DNA of 53,844 nucleotides from Deltaproteobacteria bacterium (lineage in GTDB: Bacteria > Desulfobacterota > Syntrophia > Syntrophales > UBA2185): contig JAPLJS010000047.1 in the NCBI GenBank assembly GCA_026388545.1, forward strand, positions 1-53,844, read 5' to 3'. This document shows, in pieces, positions 39,204-47,679 of the stretch. The notes below the pieces were generated by a model, which saw only the letters and a list, made by a program, of their open reading frames with translations, was not told where the DNA came from and made no database searches. Each line of letters begins with the position of its first letter. The first letter of the stretch is position 1. Both the position numbers and the translations under genes were made by a program.

Positions 39204-39236
39204 TAGTTTATCATCATATTAATTGATGTTAAACTA
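39204..39236 (+). terminator. AT-rich hairpin after radC
   Basis: TAGTTTA, ATCA and their partners TGAT, TAAACTA form an interrupted hairpin 12 bases after the radC stop. It is AT-rich and lacks a T-run, so termination is only possible. Confidence 0.35.
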
Positions 39237-39251
39237 TAATATTAATAATTA

Positions 39252-39280
39252 TTGACATACTTTATTTTCTCAGGTACATT
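39252..39280 (+). promoter_or_regulatory. Candidate promoter of the hsd operon
   Basis: TTGACA (39252-39257), a 17-base spacer and TACATT (39275-39280) lie about 185 bases before hsdM. A 6-bp inverted repeat, TCTCAG (39268-39273) and CTGAGA (39284-39289), spans the -10 and is a candidate operator. The repeat copy 39309-39399 lies between this promoter and the gene. Confidence 0.45.
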
Positions 39281-39308: not shown

Positions 39309-39399
39309 CATGTCATTGCGAGGAACAAAGTGACGCGGCAATCTTATTGTTTATCAATAACTTATAAGATTTCTCCTTATAGTCGAAATGACAAAGTGG
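39309..39399. repeat. Dispersed palindromic repeat, copy 2
   Basis: Its minus strand reads CACTTTGTCATTTCGACT, two variable bases, AAGGAGAAATCTTA, matching copy 1 at 30021-30108. Its other end (TGTCATTGCGAGGAACAAAG on the plus strand) corresponds to the second half. It lies in the 5' untranslated region of the type I restriction-modification operon. Confidence 0.6.
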
Positions 39400-39465: not shown

Positions 39466-40956
39466 ATGTCTAAAATAGACCTGGAGAAATTGAAATCCCA
39501 TCTATGGGAGTCGGCCAATATCCTTCGGGGGAGCATTGATGCGGCAGACTACAAGAATTACATCTTCGGAATGCTCTTCCTGAAGCGTCTCTCCGACGTC
39601 TTTGAAGAGGAGGGTAAGAGGATTGAAAAGGAAACGGGAAACAAGCAACTGGCCTGGGAAGAGCGTGATGAACATGAATTTTTCGTTCCGGATATCGCAC
39701 GGTGGGATCACATCAAGACCCATACTCAGGATTTAGGCACGGTCATCAATAAAGCCAATGATGCACTGGAAGAAGCGAATACGGCGACATTGGAGGGTGT
39801 GCTTGCAGTCACGGATTTCAACGACAAAGACCGGTTACCGGATGTTACCCTTTCGCAATTAATCACCCATTTTTCCAAAATCCGCCTGCGGAATGAAGAT
39901 TTAAGCGAACCCGATATTCTGGGACGGGCCTATGAATACCTGATTGACCAGTTTGCCGATGACGCCGGGAAGAAGGGAGGCGAATTTTACACACCCAAAG
40001 AAGTCGTTACGCTTCTCGTGGAGACTCTCGATCCCCAGGAGAAGATGAGAATCTGTGATCCGACCTGCGGCTCCGGCGGGATGCTTATTCAATCATTCTA
40101 TCACCTCCGGGACATTGGACAAAATCCAAGAAACATCACTCTGCGTGGACAGGAAAGAAATATCGGCACCTGGGCAATTTGCAAAATGAATATACTCCTT
40201 CATGGACTTTCCGATAGCCGCATAGAAAAAGGTGACACGCTCAGATCACCGAAACTTCTTGAAGCAGACGGAAAACTCATGACCTTCGACATCGTCATTG
40301 CCAATCCCCCCTTCTCTCTCAAGAACTGGGGTTATGAAGAGGCACAGCATGATCCCTATCGACGGTTTCGTTACGGCATCCCGCCGAAGGGCTATGGGGA
40401 TTACGCCTTTGTCCAGCATATGATCGCTACACTGACTGTCAACGGACGTGCCGGTGTCGTCATGCCGCACGGGGTTCTCTTCCGGGCTGGCGCCGAGGGT
40501 AAAATCAGAAAAGGAATCCTGGAAGATGATTTGCTGGAGGCCGTTATCGGACTCCCTTCCAATCTATTCTTTGGCGCAAGCATTCCTGCCTGCCTCTTCA
40601 TCATCAACCGGGACAAGCCAAAGGTGCGCAAGGGAAAGGTTTTCTTTCTTTACGGGGCAAACGATTACCTTGAAGGAAAGAATCAGAACAAGCTGCGGAA
40701 AGAAGACATTGAAAAAATCGCCAGCGCTTACCGGGAATACCGAACTGTCGAAAAATACTGCCGGCCTGTACCCCTTGATGAGATACGCGCCAATGACTAT
40801 AACCTGAACATCACCCGCTACATTGACGTCACGGAAGAAGAAGCCCTCATTGACATTCAGCAAGTCATCGATGAGCTGTTCACACTGAAAAAGGAGCGTA
40901 CAGTGATCGAAGAAAAGATGAATTCATTTCTCAAAGAATTAGGATACAAGGCATAA
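39466..40956 (+). CDS. hsdM: Type I restriction-modification methylase subunit HsdM
   Basis: It is the N6-adenine methyltransferase subunit of a type I restriction-modification system, working with HsdS. The 496-residue protein has the helical N-terminal domain (SHLWESANILRGSIDAADYK, FGMLFLKRLSDVFEEEGKR), then AKKGGEFYTPKEVV, the SAM motif ICDPTCGSGGMLIQSF and the catalytic IVIANPPFSLKNWG (NPPF). The length is normal. It is followed after 2 bp by a nucleotidyltransferase gene rather than hsdS. Confidence 0.97.
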   Translation: MSKIDLEKLKSHLWESANILRGSIDAADYKNYIFGMLFLKRLSDVFEEEGKRIEKETGNKQLAWEERDEHEFFVPDIARWDHIKTHTQDLGTVINKANDALEEANTATLEGVLAVTDFNDKDRLPDVTLSQLITHFSKIRLRNEDLSEPDILGRAYEYLIDQFADDAGKKGGEFYTPKEVVTLLVETLDPQEKMRICDPTCGSGGMLIQSFYHLRDIGQNPRNITLRGQERNIGTWAICKMNILLHGLSDSRIEKGDTLRSPKLLEADGKLMTFDIVIANPPFSLKNWGYEEAQHDPYRRFRYGIPPKGYGDYAFVQHMIATLTVNGRAGVVMPHGVLFRAGAEGKIRKGILEDDLLEAVIGLPSNLFFGASIPACLFIINRDKPKVRKGKVFFLYGANDYLEGKNQNKLRKEDIEKIASAYREYRTVEKYCRPVPLDEIRANDYNLNITRYIDVTEEEALIDIQQVIDELFTLKKERTVIEEKMNSFLKELGYKA

Positions 40957-40958
40957 AT

Positions 40959-41558
40959 ATGATCCGCAATGAGAAAGATGTCGATGTTATCCTGAGCGCG
41001 CTGGGAGAGCATCTGGCATATTCGGTAAAAGAACCGGTAGAGCTTCTCGTGTGCGGCGGCTCGGCCCTGCACGTTCTCGGTCTCGTAAAACGAACTACAA
41101 AAGATGTGGATGTGCTGGCCTTTGTAAAAAGGGATAAGGCCGGTAATATAGATCTTATCAAAGCCGAGCCATTGATCCCTGAACTAACCGCGGCCGTGAG
41201 AAAAGTCGCCCGCGATTTCAACCTCCCTGAAGGCTGGCTCAATGCGGGACCAGCCTCGGCTGTCGATCTCGGTCTCCCAAAAGATGTAATGGAGAGGGTC
41301 ATCACCCGGCAATACGGGCAGAAGCTGATCGTTCATTTTCTCGGGCGCTACGATCAGATACATTTTAAGCTCTATGCCGCTGTGGACCAAGGAACTGGAA
41401 AGCATCTTGACGATTTGATTGCCCTGAATCCAAGCGCGGAAGAACTGGAGCAGGCGGCACGGTGGAGCATGACACACGACATATCGGATGGATACCGGCA
41501 GACTCTGAAGAATCTTCTGGACTACCTGGGATATAAAAATGTCTCTGAAAGAATTTAG
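40959..41558 (+). CDS. Nucleotidyltransferase-fold protein (DUF6036/AbiEii-like)
   Basis: This 199-residue protein has CGGSALHVLGLVKRTTKDVD followed by VLAFV, a GG[S]-x(n)-DxD motif of the DNA polymerase beta-type nucleotidyltransferase superfamily, and FLGRYDQIHFKLYAAVDQ near residue 130. KHLDDLIALNPSAEELEQA follows. DUF6036-like and AbiEii toxin-like proteins share this pattern. The next gene, a winged-helix protein, overlaps it by 20 bp. It lies inside an hsd operon, 2 bp after hsdM. A toxin role is inferred only from the pairing; the third catalytic carboxylate was not pinned down by eye. Confidence 0.75.
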   Translation: MIRNEKDVDVILSALGEHLAYSVKEPVELLVCGGSALHVLGLVKRTTKDVDVLAFVKRDKAGNIDLIKAEPLIPELTAAVRKVARDFNLPEGWLNAGPASAVDLGLPKDVMERVITRQYGQKLIVHFLGRYDQIHFKLYAAVDQGTGKHLDDLIALNPSAEELEQAARWSMTHDISDGYRQTLKNLLDYLGYKNVSERI

Positions 41559-42597
41559 AAACATATTCATGGAAAATATTTTCTCTTTCCTCTGGCGTCA
41601 GTGGTCGGCTTTAGGGGTGCTGGGTGAAGCCAGGTCTGATGATCCCTGGGTTATCGATCCCGAAGCCTTATTGCTCTTTACCCTCGAAATGGGGAGGTAT
41701 GAACCGAGGCTCTTCGATGAGGTGATGGACTGGCTGGTTGTCAACGGCTACTGGATTGACTTGCAGAGATTAAGAGGAATTTTAAGAAAACAAGAGGCAG
41801 CAAAATGCATGCTCATGGGGGCCGTAGCCGCCTGGCTCGCAGTGAACAGCGACGATAGAAAATGGATGAATCTCGCTAATCTCTATAAACCATCTACAGC
41901 CGCAGAAACTGGACATGCAACCCCTCTCTTTTATCAGAAGGACGGTCAACCCTATCCCACGATAGGGAATCCCGATACTGCATTTATGGCCTATGGCTTT
42001 TATCGCCCCATGTTAACGCTCCGTAAATTAACAAGACAGGTACCCATTACATCGCATACGACCTTACGCTTCCTGTTGCGGGTGCTCTTCGGCGTCAGCT
42101 CACGGGCGGAGTGCCTGACATATTTGCTTACGCATGACGGCGGCCATCCCTCGGAGGTGGCAAAATCAATCGGTCTTTCACTCCGGGGAACGCAGGACGC
42201 CCTGATTGACCTTTCCCGCTCCGGTCTTGTCCTCACCCGTATAAAAGGGAAAAGGAAAACAGAATACTGGCTGTCCCAGGAGCGGTGGTGGGAATTTTTA
42301 TCGAAAGGCAGTATCACAGAGGTCAAAAGACCCCTCTGGATCGACTGGATGGCATTGTATTCGGCCCTCGCCCAGTGCTGGACAGCACTCAATGAGGTGA
42401 ACCGGGAAGATTTAAGTGATTATATGAGAAGTTCGCGCCTCCGGGATTCTTTTGAATTAGTGGCAAACGAATTCTCCCGAAGCGGCCTGGACATTCCCTC
42501 ATTGCCGGGAAGTGACGTAAGTCCACAGGAATATGAAAAGGCCTTTGAATCCTTCATTCTCCAGGTCTTCGGAGCACAATCATGGCAGAGCAGGTAA
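41539..42597 (+). CDS. Winged-helix protein paired with the nucleotidyltransferase
   Basis: This 352-residue protein has a central winged-helix domain (about 190-265): ECLTYLLTHDGGHPSEVAKS and SLRGTQDALIDLSRSGLVLT, then a basic wing with KGKRKTEYWLSQERWW. The N-terminal part (residues 10-160) is helical and rich in Trp (FLWRQWSALGVLGEARSDDP). The C-terminus is acidic and helical. It is probably DNA-binding, the antitoxin/repressor counterpart of the preceding nucleotidyltransferase, in the manner of AbiEi/AbiEii. It overlaps hsdS by 16 bp, so it is coupled to restriction-modification expression. The family assignment is tentative. Confidence 0.65.
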   Translation: MSLKEFRNIFMENIFSFLWRQWSALGVLGEARSDDPWVIDPEALLLFTLEMGRYEPRLFDEVMDWLVVNGYWIDLQRLRGILRKQEAAKCMLMGAVAAWLAVNSDDRKWMNLANLYKPSTAAETGHATPLFYQKDGQPYPTIGNPDTAFMAYGFYRPMLTLRKLTRQVPITSHTTLRFLLRVLFGVSSRAECLTYLLTHDGGHPSEVAKSIGLSLRGTQDALIDLSRSGLVLTRIKGKRKTEYWLSQERWWEFLSKGSITEVKRPLWIDWMALYSALAQCWTALNEVNREDLSDYMRSSRLRDSFELVANEFSRSGLDIPSLPGSDVSPQEYEKAFESFILQVFGAQSWQSR

Positions 42598-43892
42598 GCA
42601 GTTTAAAAACGGGTATTAAATATAAGGACACGCCTATCGGCAAGATTCCGGTGGATTGGGAGCTTCTGAGTTTGGAAGATGTATGTGATGAAGTTTACAG
42701 ATACCCAACATATTACAACATCGAATATGTCGATCCACATCAAGGTGTGCCTGAAATAAGAGGAGAATTGATAAAGGGTAATGGTGAACTTTCAAATAAT
42801 ATGTCGGAATATCGTTATATTGCGAAAGAAACATCTCTCAAATTTCCCAAAACTATTTTACATGAAGGAGATTTTGTTCTCTCCGTAAGGGGTACGATGG
42901 GGAAAATAGGATATATTTCAAACAGTTTAGAAAATGCTAACATGACAGCCAATCTTATGAGGATCTCTCCAAATCATAACAAGGTATATCCCTTGTGGAT
43001 GAAACAATTTCTTCTAAGTGATTTGTTTCAAAAACGTCTGAATGATGCATCATCAGCAACAACTATTAAGACTATTAAGGCCCCAGAACTAAAAGCACTT
43101 GAAATTTCGCTACCCCCACTTCCCGAACAAAAAAAGATTGCAGAAATTTTAACAACCGTTGATGACGCAATTGAAAAGACAGCCCAGATCATCGAAAATA
43201 CCAAAGAAGCGAAAAAAGGCCTGATGCAGCGCCTCCTGATCCGCGGCATCGGTCATCAGAAATTTAAGAAGACTGAGATTGGGGAGATACCGGAAGAATG
43301 GGAAGTCAAGCGATTAGGAGACCTTTGTGATGGTAAACCAGAATATGGGGCAAACGTAGCTGCTATAGATAGGAATGACCGTCTGCCGCGATATATCCGC
43401 ATAACAGATGTAACAGAAGATGGAAAATTATCAGCAGCTACATGGCAAAGTATAAGACAAGATGTTGCTGGACCATATCTTCTCAATAAAGGCGATTTTC
43501 TATTCGCCAGAAGTGGCGCAACGGTCGGAAAAACTTATCTATACAGAGAGGAAGATGGTTTATCTGCATTCGCAGGATACATGATCCGTTTCCGACCAAA
43601 TCCCACAGTGCTTTTACCAGAATTTCTATTCCATTATACTCACTCTATTCTTTACTACAATTGGGTTAAAGGTATACTTAGAGCGGGTGCACAGCCAAAT
43701 ATCAATGGGCAAGAGTATGCCAATATGCCCATAATAAAGCCAACGATAGGCGAGCAGAAACAGATCGTAGATATCCTAAATTCTCTTGACGAAGACATTA
43801 AAAAAGAGTCAAGTTACAAAGACCAACTGGAATCATTGAAAAAAGGCTTGATGCAGGTATTGTTAACCGGTAAGGTTCGGGTGAACGTGTAA
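42582..43892 (+). CDS. hsdS: Type I restriction-modification specificity subunit HsdS
   Basis: It gives the DNA sequence specificity of the complex. The 436-residue protein has two target recognition domains: TRD1 opens with DTPIGKIPVDWELLSLEDV, TRD2 with KKTEIGEIPEEWEVKRLGDL. Each is followed by a conserved coiled-coil spacer (EQKKIAEILTTVDDAIEKTA; EQKQIVDILNSLDEDIKKES) and a KKGLMQ[RV]LL motif. The TRDs read different half-sites. The recognition sequence cannot be read from the sequence. Confidence 0.96.
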   Translation: MAEQVSSLKTGIKYKDTPIGKIPVDWELLSLEDVCDEVYRYPTYYNIEYVDPHQGVPEIRGELIKGNGELSNNMSEYRYIAKETSLKFPKTILHEGDFVLSVRGTMGKIGYISNSLENANMTANLMRISPNHNKVYPLWMKQFLLSDLFQKRLNDASSATTIKTIKAPELKALEISLPPLPEQKKIAEILTTVDDAIEKTAQIIENTKEAKKGLMQRLLIRGIGHQKFKKTEIGEIPEEWEVKRLGDLCDGKPEYGANVAAIDRNDRLPRYIRITDVTEDGKLSAATWQSIRQDVAGPYLLNKGDFLFARSGATVGKTYLYREEDGLSAFAGYMIRFRPNPTVLLPEFLFHYTHSILYYNWVKGILRAGAQPNINGQEYANMPIIKPTIGEQKQIVDILNSLDEDIKKESSYKDQLESLKKGLMQVLLTGKVRVNV

Positions 43893-43894
43893 CC

Positions 43895-46800
43895 ATGAAG
43901 CCGATATTTAACGAAGATACCCTCTCCGAAAGCCCGGCGATCGCGCAGTTAAAACGCATGGGATACGGGTACATCCACGGCGATGAGTTGGACCCGGAAT
44001 TGCGGGATGACTGCGAACGGGCATCCCGGAGAGAAGTAGTGCTTGTATCAAGACTCAAGAAAACGCTTGCCGAGATCAACCCCCGCCTTACCGAAGAGAG
44101 CATCAACAAGGCCGTCCGCAGAATCACCCACATCCATGCCGAAAATCTGATCGAGGCAAACCGTACCTTTCATCAGGATTTGGTAGCAGGGATATCCATT
44201 AACCAGGATATTGGGGCTAAACGTCAGAAACTGACCGTTCGTTACATAAACTTCGATGATCCGAAAAAGAATGAATTTCTTGCGGTCAATCAGTTCTGGG
44301 TAAAAGGTCCGAAACAGACAGACCGCCCGGATATTGTGATCTTTATCAACGGCATCCCCTTTGTTGTGATTGAATGCAAAAGCCCTGTAGCCAAACAGAT
44401 GGGCATTAGTGAAGGGATCGTACAATTACAACGTTATCAGGAAGAAATCCCAAACCTTTTTCACACGAACCAGATACTCATCGCCCTCAATCTTTTCGGC
44501 GCAAAGTATGGAACAATTCTATCCAGTGCGGAATTTTCCCACGAGTGGAAAGCCCCAGGCAAGGAAAAGTTTCCCAATATGGCGGAGCATCCCTCGGTTC
44601 AAGAGATGCTCAAACTCGATCTGATCAAAAAAGATGATCTTTCGGAGCGCCCGACACAGCAAGAGGTGCTGATCGCAGGCATCCTGAACAAAAGAAACCT
44701 CCTCGACATAATCCAAAACTTTATCGTCTTTGAAAAGGAAAAGGCGAAAACGGTGAAGAAGGTCTGCCGCTATCAGCAATTTACGGCTGTGAATAAGATT
44801 CTGAAAAGGGTTACGACAGAAGAGGAAAAGAAGGGAATCATCTGGCACTGGCAGGGATCAGGCAAATCTCTCACCATGCTTTTTGCCGCCGTCAAGCTCC
44901 GGCGGGAGGAAGAAAAACTGAAAAACCCCATTATCCTGGTGGTAACGGATCGCATAGACCTGGACGACCAGATCAGCAAGACCTTTCGCAATTGCCGCTT
45001 CCCCAATCCCATACAGATAAGGGAAAAAGGCGGCACCCACAGGAAACTTTACGAGCTGCTGAGTCAGGACGTTGGACAGACGATTTTGACCACGGTGCAT
45101 CTGTTCCGGAAGCCTCCCGATAAACCCCTCTCTGAGGCGGAAAATATCATTGTCCTGACCGATGAAGCCCACCGTACCCAGTACGGCTTTTATGCTCTCA
45201 ACCTCCGTCGCGCCCTGCCCAATGCCTCTTTCTTCGCTTTCACCGGCACCCCGCTCAGCAAGCGGGACCGCAATACCTACCGTCATTTCAGCCCGCCGGG
45301 GGAGCGTTATCTGGATGCCTACACAATTCATAATGCGGAAGAAGACCAGGAAATCGTACCAGTGCGTTACGCAAGCCGCCTGGCGAGACTACAGGTCGTC
45401 GGCAAATCCCTGGATCAGTTATTTGAAGACCTTTTTCAGGATAAAACAGAAGAAGAGAAGGCCATCCTCAAAAAGAAATACGGCACAGCGGCGACCATTG
45501 CCAGGGCTGACCGGCGGATTGAAGGCATCGCCCATGACATGGTGGAACATTTCAATGACAAGATCAGGCCGAACGGCTTCAAGGCGCAGATCGTGGCTGC
45601 GGACAGAGAGATGGCCATTCGCTATAAAGAAATAATGGATAAGCTGATCGGCCCTGAGCGATCCGAAATTGTCATCACCATAAACAATGGCGACCCAAAG
45701 GAATGGAAGGAAAAGTATAGGCGCACAAGGGAAGATGAGAAACAAATCAAGGAGGCCTTCAACGATCCGCGGAATCCGCTTCAGTTCCTGATTGTCTGCG
45801 ATAAGCTGCTGACCGGTTTTGATGCCCCGGTTGAGCAGGTCATGTATCTGGATCAGAGGCTCAAGGAGCACACCCTGCTTCAGGCCGTGGCCCGGACGAA
45901 TCGTACCTATCACCGGAAAGAATTCGGTCTCGTTGTTGACTATGTGGGAATCGGGCGGGAACTGGCCGAGGCGCTGGTCATCTTCGAGAAAGAAGACCTG
46001 GAAGGCATCTTCGGTGTGGACGACATCTCGCGAGAGCTTGCCAATTTAGATTACTGGCATAAAAAGACTCTCAGTTTCTTTGAGAAGATAGACCGCACCC
46101 GGGAAAAACCGGAAGATATTCTCCAGCAATGCATGGAGATTCTTAAGCCGAAAGATGTCCGGGCGGATTTCGACGCCGCATTTCTGAGCATGGCGAAGAG
46201 TATGGATTTCCTCATGCCGGACCCGAAGGCGGCGCCGTATTTAGCAGATTTTAAATTTTTCGGCACCATCCGAGAAGGCGCGAGAAACCTCTATCGCGAT
46301 GAGCGCCTCAGTCTCATTGAGTGCAGCCGGAAGGTGGAAGCCCTTATCCATGCGCATATCGCCGAAACGGGAATGGAACAGATTTTAGAACCCATCAATA
46401 TCACAGCCCCTGATTTCCGGGAAAAACTGGAAGTTAAGGGAAGTTCAAAAGCAAAGGCCAGCCATGTAGAATATGCCATCCGTCAGACCATCACAGAAAA
46501 AATTGCCACCGATCCTGCCTTCTACGGTTCTCTCAGAGACCGGCTGGAAAAACTGATAGAAGAAGACAGGAAAGAGCGGCAGGACGAGGCAAAATTACTC
46601 TTGGACCTTCTGGACATGAGCAGCCAGGAAAAACAACGAGAGGTTTATGCACACTCACTGGGTTTGCAAAATGTGAAGGAATTTTCTTTCTACGGTGTGC
46701 TTTCTCCATTCAGAGAATCCCTATTTTTAGCTTCTGAGAAAGAGCAGGCATCCTTTACCGGAGAGGTGATTGAGGCCATCAAGGCCAAGACGGTCATCGA

Positions 46801-46945
46801 CTGGACGGAAAAAAATGATGTTCAAAGAGAAATGAGACGAGAGATCAAGAGCCTTTTGAGACAAAGGGGATTTCAGGAAGAGCAGGTAGAGCCTCTCACC
46901 GGCGAGATTATGAACCTGGCCAGGATTCACCTGAAAGAAACTTAA
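43895..46945 (+). CDS. hsdR: Type I restriction enzyme subunit HsdR
   Basis: It is the ATP-dependent translocase and nuclease subunit. The 1016-residue protein has the N-terminal PD-(D/E)xK nuclease (DRPDIVIFINGIPFVVIECK), Walker A WQGSGKSLTMLFA, DEAH-type box VLTDEAHRTQYGF, motif III AFTGTPLSKRDR and motif VI LLQAVARTNRTYHRKEFG. The C-terminal 250 residues are helical, for assembly with HsdM/HsdS. It begins 2 bp after hsdS and all motifs are intact. Confidence 0.97.
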   Translation: MKPIFNEDTLSESPAIAQLKRMGYGYIHGDELDPELRDDCERASRREVVLVSRLKKTLAEINPRLTEESINKAVRRITHIHAENLIEANRTFHQDLVAGISINQDIGAKRQKLTVRYINFDDPKKNEFLAVNQFWVKGPKQTDRPDIVIFINGIPFVVIECKSPVAKQMGISEGIVQLQRYQEEIPNLFHTNQILIALNLFGAKYGTILSSAEFSHEWKAPGKEKFPNMAEHPSVQEMLKLDLIKKDDLSERPTQQEVLIAGILNKRNLLDIIQNFIVFEKEKAKTVKKVCRYQQFTAVNKILKRVTTEEEKKGIIWHWQGSGKSLTMLFAAVKLRREEEKLKNPIILVVTDRIDLDDQISKTFRNCRFPNPIQIREKGGTHRKLYELLSQDVGQTILTTVHLFRKPPDKPLSEAENIIVLTDEAHRTQYGFYALNLRRALPNASFFAFTGTPLSKRDRNTYRHFSPPGERYLDAYTIHNAEEDQEIVPVRYASRLARLQVVGKSLDQLFEDLFQDKTEEEKAILKKKYGTAATIARADRRIEGIAHDMVEHFNDKIRPNGFKAQIVAADREMAIRYKEIMDKLIGPERSEIVITINNGDPKEWKEKYRRTREDEKQIKEAFNDPRNPLQFLIVCDKLLTGFDAPVEQVMYLDQRLKEHTLLQAVARTNRTYHRKEFGLVVDYVGIGRELAEALVIFEKEDLEGIFGVDDISRELANLDYWHKKTLSFFEKIDRTREKPEDILQQCMEILKPKDVRADFDAAFLSMAKSMDFLMPDPKAAPYLADFKFFGTIREGARNLYRDERLSLIECSRKVEALIHAHIAETGMEQILEPINITAPDFREKLEVKGSSKAKASHVEYAIRQTITEKIATDPAFYGSLRDRLEKLIEEDRKERQDEAKLLLDLLDMSSQEKQREVYAHSLGLQNVKEFSFYGVLSPFRESLFLASEKEQASFTGEVIEAIKAKTVIDWTEKNDVQREMRREIKSLLRQRGFQEEQVEPLTGEIMNLARIHLKET

Positions 46946-46947
46946 AT

Positions 46948-47679
46948 ATGAATATCATTCAATTTGGTAACAAGCAGATTAACTATGAAATCGTCCATAG
47001 TAGCCGGAAAAAGACCGTGGCTATCTATGTAGAACCAACAATTGTAACGGTCCGCGCACCGAAGCGGCTCAGTGGGGAAAAAATACGTTCACTCGTGGAG
47101 AAAAAGGCCCGATGGATTTTCGACAAGCAGGAGCGAATAATACGTGAGCGCAGGCTTCACCCCCCGAAGGAATTTGTAAGCGGTGAGTCATTTCCGTATT
47201 TGGGCAGGCAGTATCGCCTGAAAGTTCTTAGATCGGTCAACAGACTGAGTAATACATGCCACCTCATAAGCGGTCGTCTTCAAGTGGAGATCAGCAAAAA
47301 CCTGCAAGAGAAAGATGCAGGAATGGCGGTAAAGGAATCTTTAATAGAGTGGTACCAGGAACATGCAAAAAAGAAGATTGATGAACGATTACCTCGCATT
47401 GCCCATCAACTGGGCAGATGGCCAGTTTCTATCCAGATCAAGGATCAGAAAACTCGCTGGGGCAGTTGCTCCCGTTCGGGTATTGTCCGCTTCAACTGGA
47501 AAATTATCATGGCATCTATTTCCGTTCTTGATTACATAATCACCCATGAACTCTGTCACCTCTTTTATCAAAATCATTCACCCGAATACTGGAAAAAAGT
47601 TCAGTCAATTATTCCGGACTACAGGAAAAAGCGTGATTGGTTAAGGGATCACGCCTTCATCATGGGCAATTTCGCCTAA
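46948..47679 (+). CDS. YgjP-like zinc metallopeptidase (DUF45)
   Basis: This 243-residue protein of the YgjP/SprT-like DUF45 family has VTVRAPKRLSGEKIRSLVEK, RWGSCSRSGIVRFNWKII and the zinc-binding ITHELCHLFYQNHSPEYWK (HExxH with downstream residues). It begins 2 bp after hsdR. DUF45 genes are frequently found beside type I restriction-modification genes, but their role there is unclear. It is probably the last gene of the operon. Confidence 0.93.
   Translation: MNIIQFGNKQINYEIVHSSRKKTVAIYVEPTIVTVRAPKRLSGEKIRSLVEKKARWIFDKQERIIRERRLHPPKEFVSGESFPYLGRQYRLKVLRSVNRLSNTCHLISGRLQVEISKNLQEKDAGMAVKESLIEWYQEHAKKKIDERLPRIAHQLGRWPVSIQIKDQKTRWGSCSRSGIVRFNWKIIMASISVLDYIITHELCHLFYQNHSPEYWKKVQSIIPDYRKKRDWLRDHAFIMGNFA

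Follow-up and report, generated by a model that had tools for sequence, protein, structure and literature searches.

The window, by which we mean the whole stretch of DNA analysed, comprises 53,844 nucleotides (positions 1 to 53,844 of contig JAPLJS010000047.1) of the 3.28-Mb genome of a Deltaproteobacteria bacterium (GCA_026388545.1). Between positions 39466 and 47679, six genes are packed on the plus strand in the order hsdM, nucleotidyltransferase (NTase), winged-helix (wHTH) protein, hsdS, hsdR and YgjP/DUF45 peptidase, with 2-nt gaps or short overlaps between them; our check of the open reading frames agrees with the operon described in the first-pass annotation. The features of the locus are the following.

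39205–39235, no strand: 31-bp palindrome AGTTTA-N19-TAAACT, putative operator of the wHTH protein, from its conservation and uniqueness
39252–39280, plus strand: sigma-70-like promoter of the operon, TTGACA-N17-TACATT, 10/12 consensus matches
39466–40956, plus strand: hsdM, type I DNA adenine methyltransferase subunit, 496 aa (Pfam N6_Mtase, E 4e-104; HsdM_N, E 1.9e-29; TIGR00497 above cut-off)
40959–41558, plus strand: DUF6036/MenT-like NTase, proposed toxin/effector, 199 aa (Pfam DUF6036 above cut-off; AF2/Foldseek)
41539–42597, plus strand: wHTH protein, proposed antitoxin and transcription regulator, 352 aa (AF2 model)
42582–43892, plus strand: hsdS, type I specificity subunit with two target-recognition domains, 436 aa (Pfam Methylase_S in two stretches, E 2e-39)
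43895–46945, plus strand: hsdR, type I restriction/translocase subunit, 1016 aa (HSDR_N, SWI2_SNF2, T1R_D3-like, T1RH-like_C; TIGR00348 above cut-off)
46948–47679, plus strand: YgjP-like (DUF45) metallopeptidase, 243 aa (Pfam YgjP-like, E 2.3e-59)

From hsdM to the peptidase gene, the junctions are a 2-nt gap, a 20-nt overlap, a 16-nt overlap and two further 2-nt gaps. The hsd motifs, previously reported as intact, could all be read in the translations: DPTCGSGGM and NPPF in HsdM, and PD-x-ECK, GSGKS, DEAH and TGTP in HsdR. The locus is a type I restriction-modification (RM) operon, with hsdM, hsdS and hsdR assigned by Pfam and TIGR models and carrying intact catalytic motifs in one operon. 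The peptidase gene is linked to hsdR and not to the NTase/wHTH pair: across the clade it lies 3' of intact hsdR, and it is absent where hsdR has been lost.

The nucleotidyltransferase and its winged-helix partner

The window NTase scores just above the cut-off of Pfam DUF6036 (PF19502; 24.6 bits against 23.6), which is matched at E ≤ 0.01 by 77 of its 78 relatives, and below that of AbiEii (16.1 bits against 22.5), matched at the same level by 45 of the 78. The function of the DUF6036 family is not described, and the literature searched does not mention it. With the AF2 model of the NTase (pLDDT 95), the nearest solved fold of known role found by Foldseek is the tRNA-modifying toxin MenT1 (8an5 and 8an4, probabilities 0.98 and 0.96), with weak E-values (0.01–0.03) and a TM-score of about 0.4. 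Sequence searches of solved structures with the NTase and the wHTH protein singly gave no useful match, and the NTase profile returned only a weak match to 5uvd.

The residues R45, T47, D49, D51, K137 and D152, as well as the glycines of motifs I and II, are conserved in the alignment of the 78 relatives. T47, D49, K137 and D152 correspond to the catalytic residues T39, D41, K137 and D152 of MenT1 (PMC10435456), K137 and D152 being matched by spacing and conservation, without superposition, while R45-x3-D49-x-D51 corresponds to R63-x3-D67-x-D69 of AbiEii (PMC3985639). K137 constitutes motif III and D152 motif IV; the NTase has no equivalent residue at the spacing of the AbiEii motif III arginine, and a comparison with the profile of the genome's own AbiEii proteins aligned motifs I–II alone, at 15% probability. 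This full set of conserved residues indicates a catalytic site that appears complete.

The wHTH protein matches no Pfam family above cut-off and none of the AbiEi models. Matches of its AF2 model (pLDDT 91) to solved structures cover the winged-helix part alone, about residues 173–245 of 352. We also considered a HEPN/MNT (type VII) identity for this partner, and rejected it, since the fold is helical plus wHTH and Pfam HEPN is absent; the consensus of the partner's alignment contains no conserved copy of the R-x4-6-H motif.

A two-gene cassette in the hsdM–hsdS slot

In each of 90 loci, drawn from many phyla, the wHTH gene comes next after the NTase gene, mostly with an overlap of 20–32 nt, and dN/dS values of 0.03–0.29 in near pairs indicate purifying selection on both. 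Most copies lie outside RM operons, alone among unrelated genes, and the neighbourhood of these standalone cassettes is random as a clue to function: among 102 neighbours, at most two share any one Pfam family. About one third are found in type I operons, each time directly 3' of hsdM. The link to hsd genes is thus repeated rather than random: hsdM is immediately upstream in 26 of the 80 loci gathered by NTase homology, far above chance. Most of the relatives come from metagenome bins. There is no sign of carriage by phages or plasmids, since plasmid collections hold no relative of either protein, and viral contigs, searched with the NTase alone, hold no confirmed one. Judged from these sequence comparisons, the two genes are an autonomous, apparently mobile, toxin-antitoxin (TA)-like cassette. 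We found no description of the pair in hsd operons in the literature searched, which covered few subscription papers.

The HsdM tree, on which the cassette-bearing proteins require at least three separate changes (parsimony 6), suggests that the cassette entered the hsdM–hsdS slot several times. Close cassette-less sisters carry Bro-N or other cargo, and in related operons that lack the cassette the slot holds RhuM, DUF1016/YhcG, Bro-N, Schlafen AlbA, Fic, HigB-like, Abi_2, PDDEXK and others. The many unrelated genes accepted by the slot, and the mobility of the unit across phyla, would suit a selfish TA-like module that sits in an insertion-tolerant gap without functional coupling to restriction. 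We consider such a passenger improbable, however, because the HsdM clade around the window bears the cassette in 19 of 19 rows from at least five phyla (rows mostly chosen by NTase), and because the palindrome described below has relocated to the promoter of the operon, where it has been retained. Matches of at least 77% identity obtained with HsdM as bait are all cassette-bearing where the contig continues.

The first-pass annotation had suggested that the pair could be a guard that loss of RM expression would set free. Direct restraint of the NTase by HsdM, HsdS or HsdR, as in PrrI/PrrC, would free the toxin upon loss or inhibition of restriction; PrrC offers a precedent, as a toxin in a type I locus that the Hsd complex keeps latent (PMC3506569, PMC12707154), and the position beside hsdM and hsdS is constant across several independent captures. 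However, L025, L028 and L030 have lost hsdR through deletions that left different scars, L044 has no hsdR, and L035 and L045 lack all hsd genes, while the NTase and wHTH genes are intact in each of these loci, with dN/dS of 0.24 and 0.14, respectively, between the hsdR-deleted L028 and L030. Release on loss of RM is disfavoured because the pair has survived these deletions, and most cassettes never adjoin hsd genes at all. The survivors may carry compensating changes, and a signal could still come from an RM system that is inhibited rather than lost, so we regard a guard as distinctly unlikely rather than refuted. A back-up abortive defence, the other possibility raised in the first-pass annotation, is the function that we prefer for the NTase, as a prediction from sequence.

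A palindrome at the operon promoter

The first-pass annotation did not mention a palindrome at the operon promoter. The 31-bp element at 39205–39235 occurs as a single exact copy in the whole 3.28-Mb genome and lies just upstream of the −35 box, the promoter starting 16 nt past it. Of 18 cassette-bearing loci tested from the window's clade, 15 have it upstream of hsdM, at a fixed length of 31 bp and with 0–2 mismatches, and it precedes the NTase gene in two cassettes without hsd genes (L035, no mismatch; L045, one mismatch). With 0–1 mismatch, it was found at none of 81 cassette-less hsdM genes and in 4 of 3073 background tiles. A similar −35/−10 box follows the palindrome by 6–20 nt in 17 loci. 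The motif is absent from L040, L046 and L029, in the last case only because the contig ends, and covariation of the inner arms is not significant (P 0.22). In other cassette clades the NTase is preceded by a palindrome particular to the clade, in standalone and embedded copies alike (for example L055 with L067/L068, and L023 with L082/L084), and inverted repeats upstream of cassettes exceed those of control genes (Mann-Whitney P 4e-5). The palindrome accompanies the cassette and is clade-specific.

That a conserved promoter palindrome travels with the pair suggests control of the whole restriction system by the wHTH protein, and we infer that this protein is probably autoregulatory and has come to control the restriction operon. 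Repression is not certain, because the palindrome of the window's lineage lies upstream of the −35 box, unlike those of the TTAGG group, which overlap the promoter.

Nucleotidyltransferases of the same superfamily can modify proteins, as do type VII MntA and GlnE, and the pair could accordingly be a regulator and not a toxin, the NTase tuning operon transcription by nucleotide transfer to the wHTH protein or to HsdM. A putative operator at the hsd promoter, associated with the cassette, is consistent with this, and its position upstream of the −35 box suits an activator. Nevertheless, a TA-like unit agrees better with the fact that most cassettes are solitary and have no other genes to control, and the closest solved fold of known role is that of a toxin. 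We therefore consider a purely regulatory pair unlikely.

Proposed mechanism and relation to known systems

We propose, with a probability of about 0.5, that a mobile TA-like cassette of a DUF6036/MenT-like NTase and a wHTH protein was captured between hsdM and hsdS, where it regulates the operon and backs up restriction. The wHTH protein would bind the 31-bp palindrome and autoregulate; because the palindrome is at the hsd promoter in the window's lineage, it would set the transcription of hsdM, NTase, wHTH, hsdS, hsdR and peptidase genes together. The NTase would be kept inactive by the wHTH protein until infection upsets the balance, whereupon it may modify tRNA, or another target, so that growth stops and restriction is backed up. 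More tentatively, and at somewhat less than even odds, the TA module may serve as a dedicated transcription controller of the type I operon, with restriction and growth arrest joined in one switch through the toxin/antitoxin balance.

In the immunity-suicide coupling hypothesis, RM loci carry toxins without typical antitoxins, and Hsd proteins are the inhibitors (PMC3506569). In contrast, the hsdM–hsdS slot would here hold a full TA-like pair, a toxin candidate with its own regulator, apparently captured more than once. With the putative operator at the operon promoter, this is a directly testable case of coupling, in which a type I RM operon may have a dedicated transcription regulator. Furthermore, the pair gives a functional handle on DUF6036, and the slot, which related operons fill with a dozen different types of toxin/Abi cargo, provides a route to new effectors.

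The resemblance to AbiEi/AbiEii noted at first holds in that the pair is a TA/Abi-like NTase with a wHTH protein, and does not extend to the NTase family (DUF6036), the gene order, the unrelated wHTH partner or the location, mostly outside RM operons. AbiE (a type IV TA system of an AbiEi wHTH antitoxin and an AbiEii DUF1814 NTase) likewise pairs a wHTH protein with a pol-beta NTase in a unit of two genes, and shares upstream palindromes and, but for the motif III arginine, the motifs G-G...R-x3-D-h-D, K and D. However, the regulator gene comes first in AbiE (PMC3985639), whereas the NTase comes first in all 90 cassettes; the wHTH is N-terminal in the AbiE antitoxin and central (about 173–245) in the 352-aa partner, and the window pair neither reaches the AbiEii Pfam cut-off nor matches an AbiEi model.

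MenAT1 of Mycobacterium tuberculosis, with its tRNA nucleotidyltransferase toxin, has the T/D/K/D set at matching spacing, including K137 and D152 in both proteins. It differs in its small, unrelated antitoxin MenA1 and in having no link to restriction, and the PDB search detected no sequence match to the NTase. PrrC, the anticodon nuclease of the EcoprrI type IC locus, is similar as an effector gene among hsd genes, predicted to block translation and to back up restriction. Yet PrrC consists of one HEPN/ABC-ATPase protein under restraint by the Hsd enzyme, whereas the NTase of the window has its own wHTH partner, in a pair that also occurs outside RM operons and has a putative operator at the promoter.

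Operon composition and its nucleotidyltransferase

The first-pass annotation had described six plus-strand genes in tight packing with intact hsd motifs, and both points were confirmed: all junctions at 39466-47679 are 2-nt gaps or 16-20-nt overlaps, and the catalytic motifs are complete in translation. Pfam and other family models identify HsdM, a DUF6036 nucleotidyltransferase (NTase, 40959-41558), a protein without a Pfam family (the winged-helix, or wHTH, protein, 41539-42597), HsdS, HsdR and a YgjP-like/DUF45 metallopeptidase. The middle genes had been likened to AbiEi/AbiEii; the NTase match to AbiEii is under the Pfam cut-off. The peptidase gene (46948-47679) comes after hsdR in those relatives whose operon is intact and is absent from loci with a deleted hsdR; it is thus tied to hsdR and not to the pair. 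Elsewhere in the window's genome five AbiEii-family genes exceed the Pfam cut-off (contigs C54, C114 (two), C121 and C59; L001-L005), making this genome rich in NTase toxin-antitoxin-like loci.

The AlphaFold2 model of the NTase is confident (pLDDT 95), and its first Foldseek match in the PDB is 5uvd, followed by Mycobacterium tuberculosis MenT1 (8an5 and 8an4, with probabilities of 0.98 and 0.96, E 0.02-0.03 and TM ~0.4). Residues invariant or near-invariant in 78 sequences include G33, G34, R45, T47, D49, D51, K137 and D152. The catalytic residues of MenT1 are T39, D41, K137 and D152 (PMC10435456), and motif II of AbiEii is R63-x3-D67-x-D69 (PMC3985639). With equivalence taken from motif order and spacing, not structural superposition, the core catalytic set of the NTase appears complete; no residue at the corresponding spacing matches the motif III arginine of AbiEii. 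We consider it fairly probable that the NTase is a toxin. The predicted model of the wHTH protein is also confident (pLDDT 91); only the winged helix in its middle (about 173-245) is similar to solved structures, and the N-terminal helical part, with its conserved WRQWSALG motif, has no match among the solved structures listed.

The cassette inside and outside restriction operons

An alignment-based scan across genomes found 180 NTase relatives, of which 80 were kept; together with the window and nine loci from a phylum search they give 90 loci, and in all 90 a gene for the same wHTH protein lies directly 3' of the NTase, mostly overlapping it by 20-32 nt. In every close pair that gave a usable estimate, both genes show purifying selection. 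The hosts are Thermodesulfobacteriota, Nitrospirota, Verrucomicrobiota, Spirochaetota, Actinomycetota, Bacillota, Acidobacteriota, Omnitrophota, Elusimicrobiota and one archaeal bin. A plasmid collection contained no relative of either protein, and a scan of viral contigs confirmed none for the NTase. Standalone copies make up roughly two thirds of the cassettes, and their neighbours are unrelated: among the 102 nearest genes, each Pfam family is seen at most twice. The association with hsd genes, sought through gene order in other genomes, was found in 26 of the 80 loci, where hsdM is immediately 5' of the cassette; hsdS follows wherever the contig continues, and in L065 one small gene intervenes. 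The two genes form an autonomous unit. At L171, in a Verrucomicrobiota genome, the hsdM slot holds a divergent NTase-wHTH pair whose model scores are weak, which suggests a wider family.

The cassette is also mobile. For the hsd label the NTase tree requires nine changes, gains or losses, eight of them forced by well-supported branches; for the cassette label the HsdM tree, built by a quick method, requires six, three of them forced. The window's HsdM clade bears the cassette in 19 of 19 members, a count subject to sampling bias because most were found through the NTase; HsdM-only matches of at least 77% identity (G068, G093 and G479) carry it too, and in a fourth (G192) a contig end interrupts the gene, whose other fragment has the pair. 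The remaining cassette-bearers are scattered (L055, L065, L062/L103/L104, L096 and L171), and their close HsdM relatives carry other cargo: for example, the partner of L065 on the tree is L181, L055 falls into a group with L132, and L181 and L132 each have a Bro-N gene.

In 43 cassette-less relatives hsdM is immediately followed by a gene other than hsdS, and Pfam assigned this cargo to RhuM (7), DUF1016_N (5), Bro-N (5), Schlafen AlbA_2 (4), YhcG, KilA-N, Fic and a HigB-like toxin (3 each), PDDEXK_3 (2), and also Abi_2, GmrSD, patatin and GIY-YIG. Toxin/Abi-like genes have therefore settled repeatedly at the hsdM-hsdS junction. Between hsdS and hsdR, a second cargo position, Nitrospirota members have a further gene (L038:6993-8339, L039:9506-10912) with an N-terminal SEC-C motif and a C-terminus like Xre/MbcA/ParS toxin-binding proteins, and two loci have IS200-like Y1 transposase-related genes (L027:6733-7401, L032:10180-10668). 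Many operons of the cassette-less and Verrucomicrobiota types have, ahead of hsdM, a gene of ~200 aa that belongs to no Pfam family and resembles the HsdS model weakly (L103:5862-6452, L117:917-1498 and similar).

It had been suggested that the pair acts as a guard, freed when restriction-modification is lost, and the surviving loci speak against this. Of hsdR, only N-terminal scars of about 21, 42 and 73 residues are left in L025, L028 and L030, and a search of L044 found none; L028, L030 and L044 have a shortened hsdS, and L035 and L045 lack all hsd genes. NTase and wHTH genes are intact in all six. Toxin release on simple restriction loss would not easily leave such survivors, though compensating changes are possible.

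Palindromes upstream of the cassettes

Aligned hsdM upstream regions of the window's clade share an inverted repeat, a 31-bp operator-like palindrome (AGTTTA-N19-TAAACT), which in the window precedes the promoter of the plus-strand operon.

Features at the operon promoter (window coordinates)
39205-39235, operator-like palindrome
39252-39257, -35 box
39275-39280, -10 box

A dispersed repeat, CATTGCGAGGAACAAAGTGACGCGGCAATCTT, lies between this promoter and hsdM (39314-39345) and extends the leader, which measures about 185 nt here and some 30-55 nt in most relatives; the window's genome has four more copies at up to 3 mismatches.

The operator is associated with the cassette. All collected DNA contains 16 exact sites, nearly all 5' of a cassette-bearing hsdM, and of the 18 upstream regions tested for cassette-bearing hsdM genes, 15 show the fixed geometry with 0-2 mismatches (a strict count without duplicates, at 0-1 mismatch, gives 12 as a lower bound). 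At 0-1 mismatch it occurs in 0 of 81 cassette-less regions, one having it at 2 mismatches, and in 4 of 3073 background tiles. The window's 3.28 Mb genome contains a single exact copy, at the promoter site, and the chance expectation in the window alone, with up to 1 mismatch, is 0.11 matches. A TTGACA box begins 6-20 nt 3' of the operator in 17 of 17 loci examined. Although without hsd genes, L035 (0 mismatches) and L045 (1 mismatch) keep the operator 5' of the NTase; these two loci, L039 and L043 are outside the motif-defining alignment and so support the operator independently.

In other cassette clades, palindromes particular to each clade lie right 5' of the NTase, and embedded cassettes retain them between hsdM and the NTase. 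Each of five motif types was confined to one clade (the motifs were defined on the same sequences, so that within-clade counts are not independent). The last 60 nt of upstream sequence are 78-80% identical between L055 and standalone L067/L068, and 75-77% between L023 and L084/L082, above every shuffle; further upstream, identity does not exceed the shuffles, and most comparisons for L103/L104 and all for L062 and L065 are within the shuffle range. Upstream inverted repeats with z > 2 are found for 39% of standalone cassettes vs 15% of control genes (Mann-Whitney P 4e-5). The operator very probably belongs to the cassette and not to hsd. On the most economical reading its binder would be the wHTH protein, since this is the sole DNA-binding-like protein common to all these loci. 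From the site at the operon promoter and the gap of only 2 nt between hsdM and the NTase in the window's lineage, we infer operon-wide control.

Proposed mechanism and known systems

In the mechanism we propose, the wHTH protein would bind the operator and thereby control the operon, the NTase and wHTH protein would act as toxin and antitoxin, tRNA would be the putative target, and the pair may serve in phage defence; we give this whole chain a probability of about one half. The literature searched describes no DUF6036-wHTH pair as a unit, no repeated capture of such a pair into the hsdM-hsdS slot and no cassette-linked operator at a type I promoter. Toxins embedded in restriction-modification loci, type I systems included, are already known (PMC3506569, PMC3710099, PMC12707154), with PrrC as the worked example, and so are the NTases of AbiE and MenAT.
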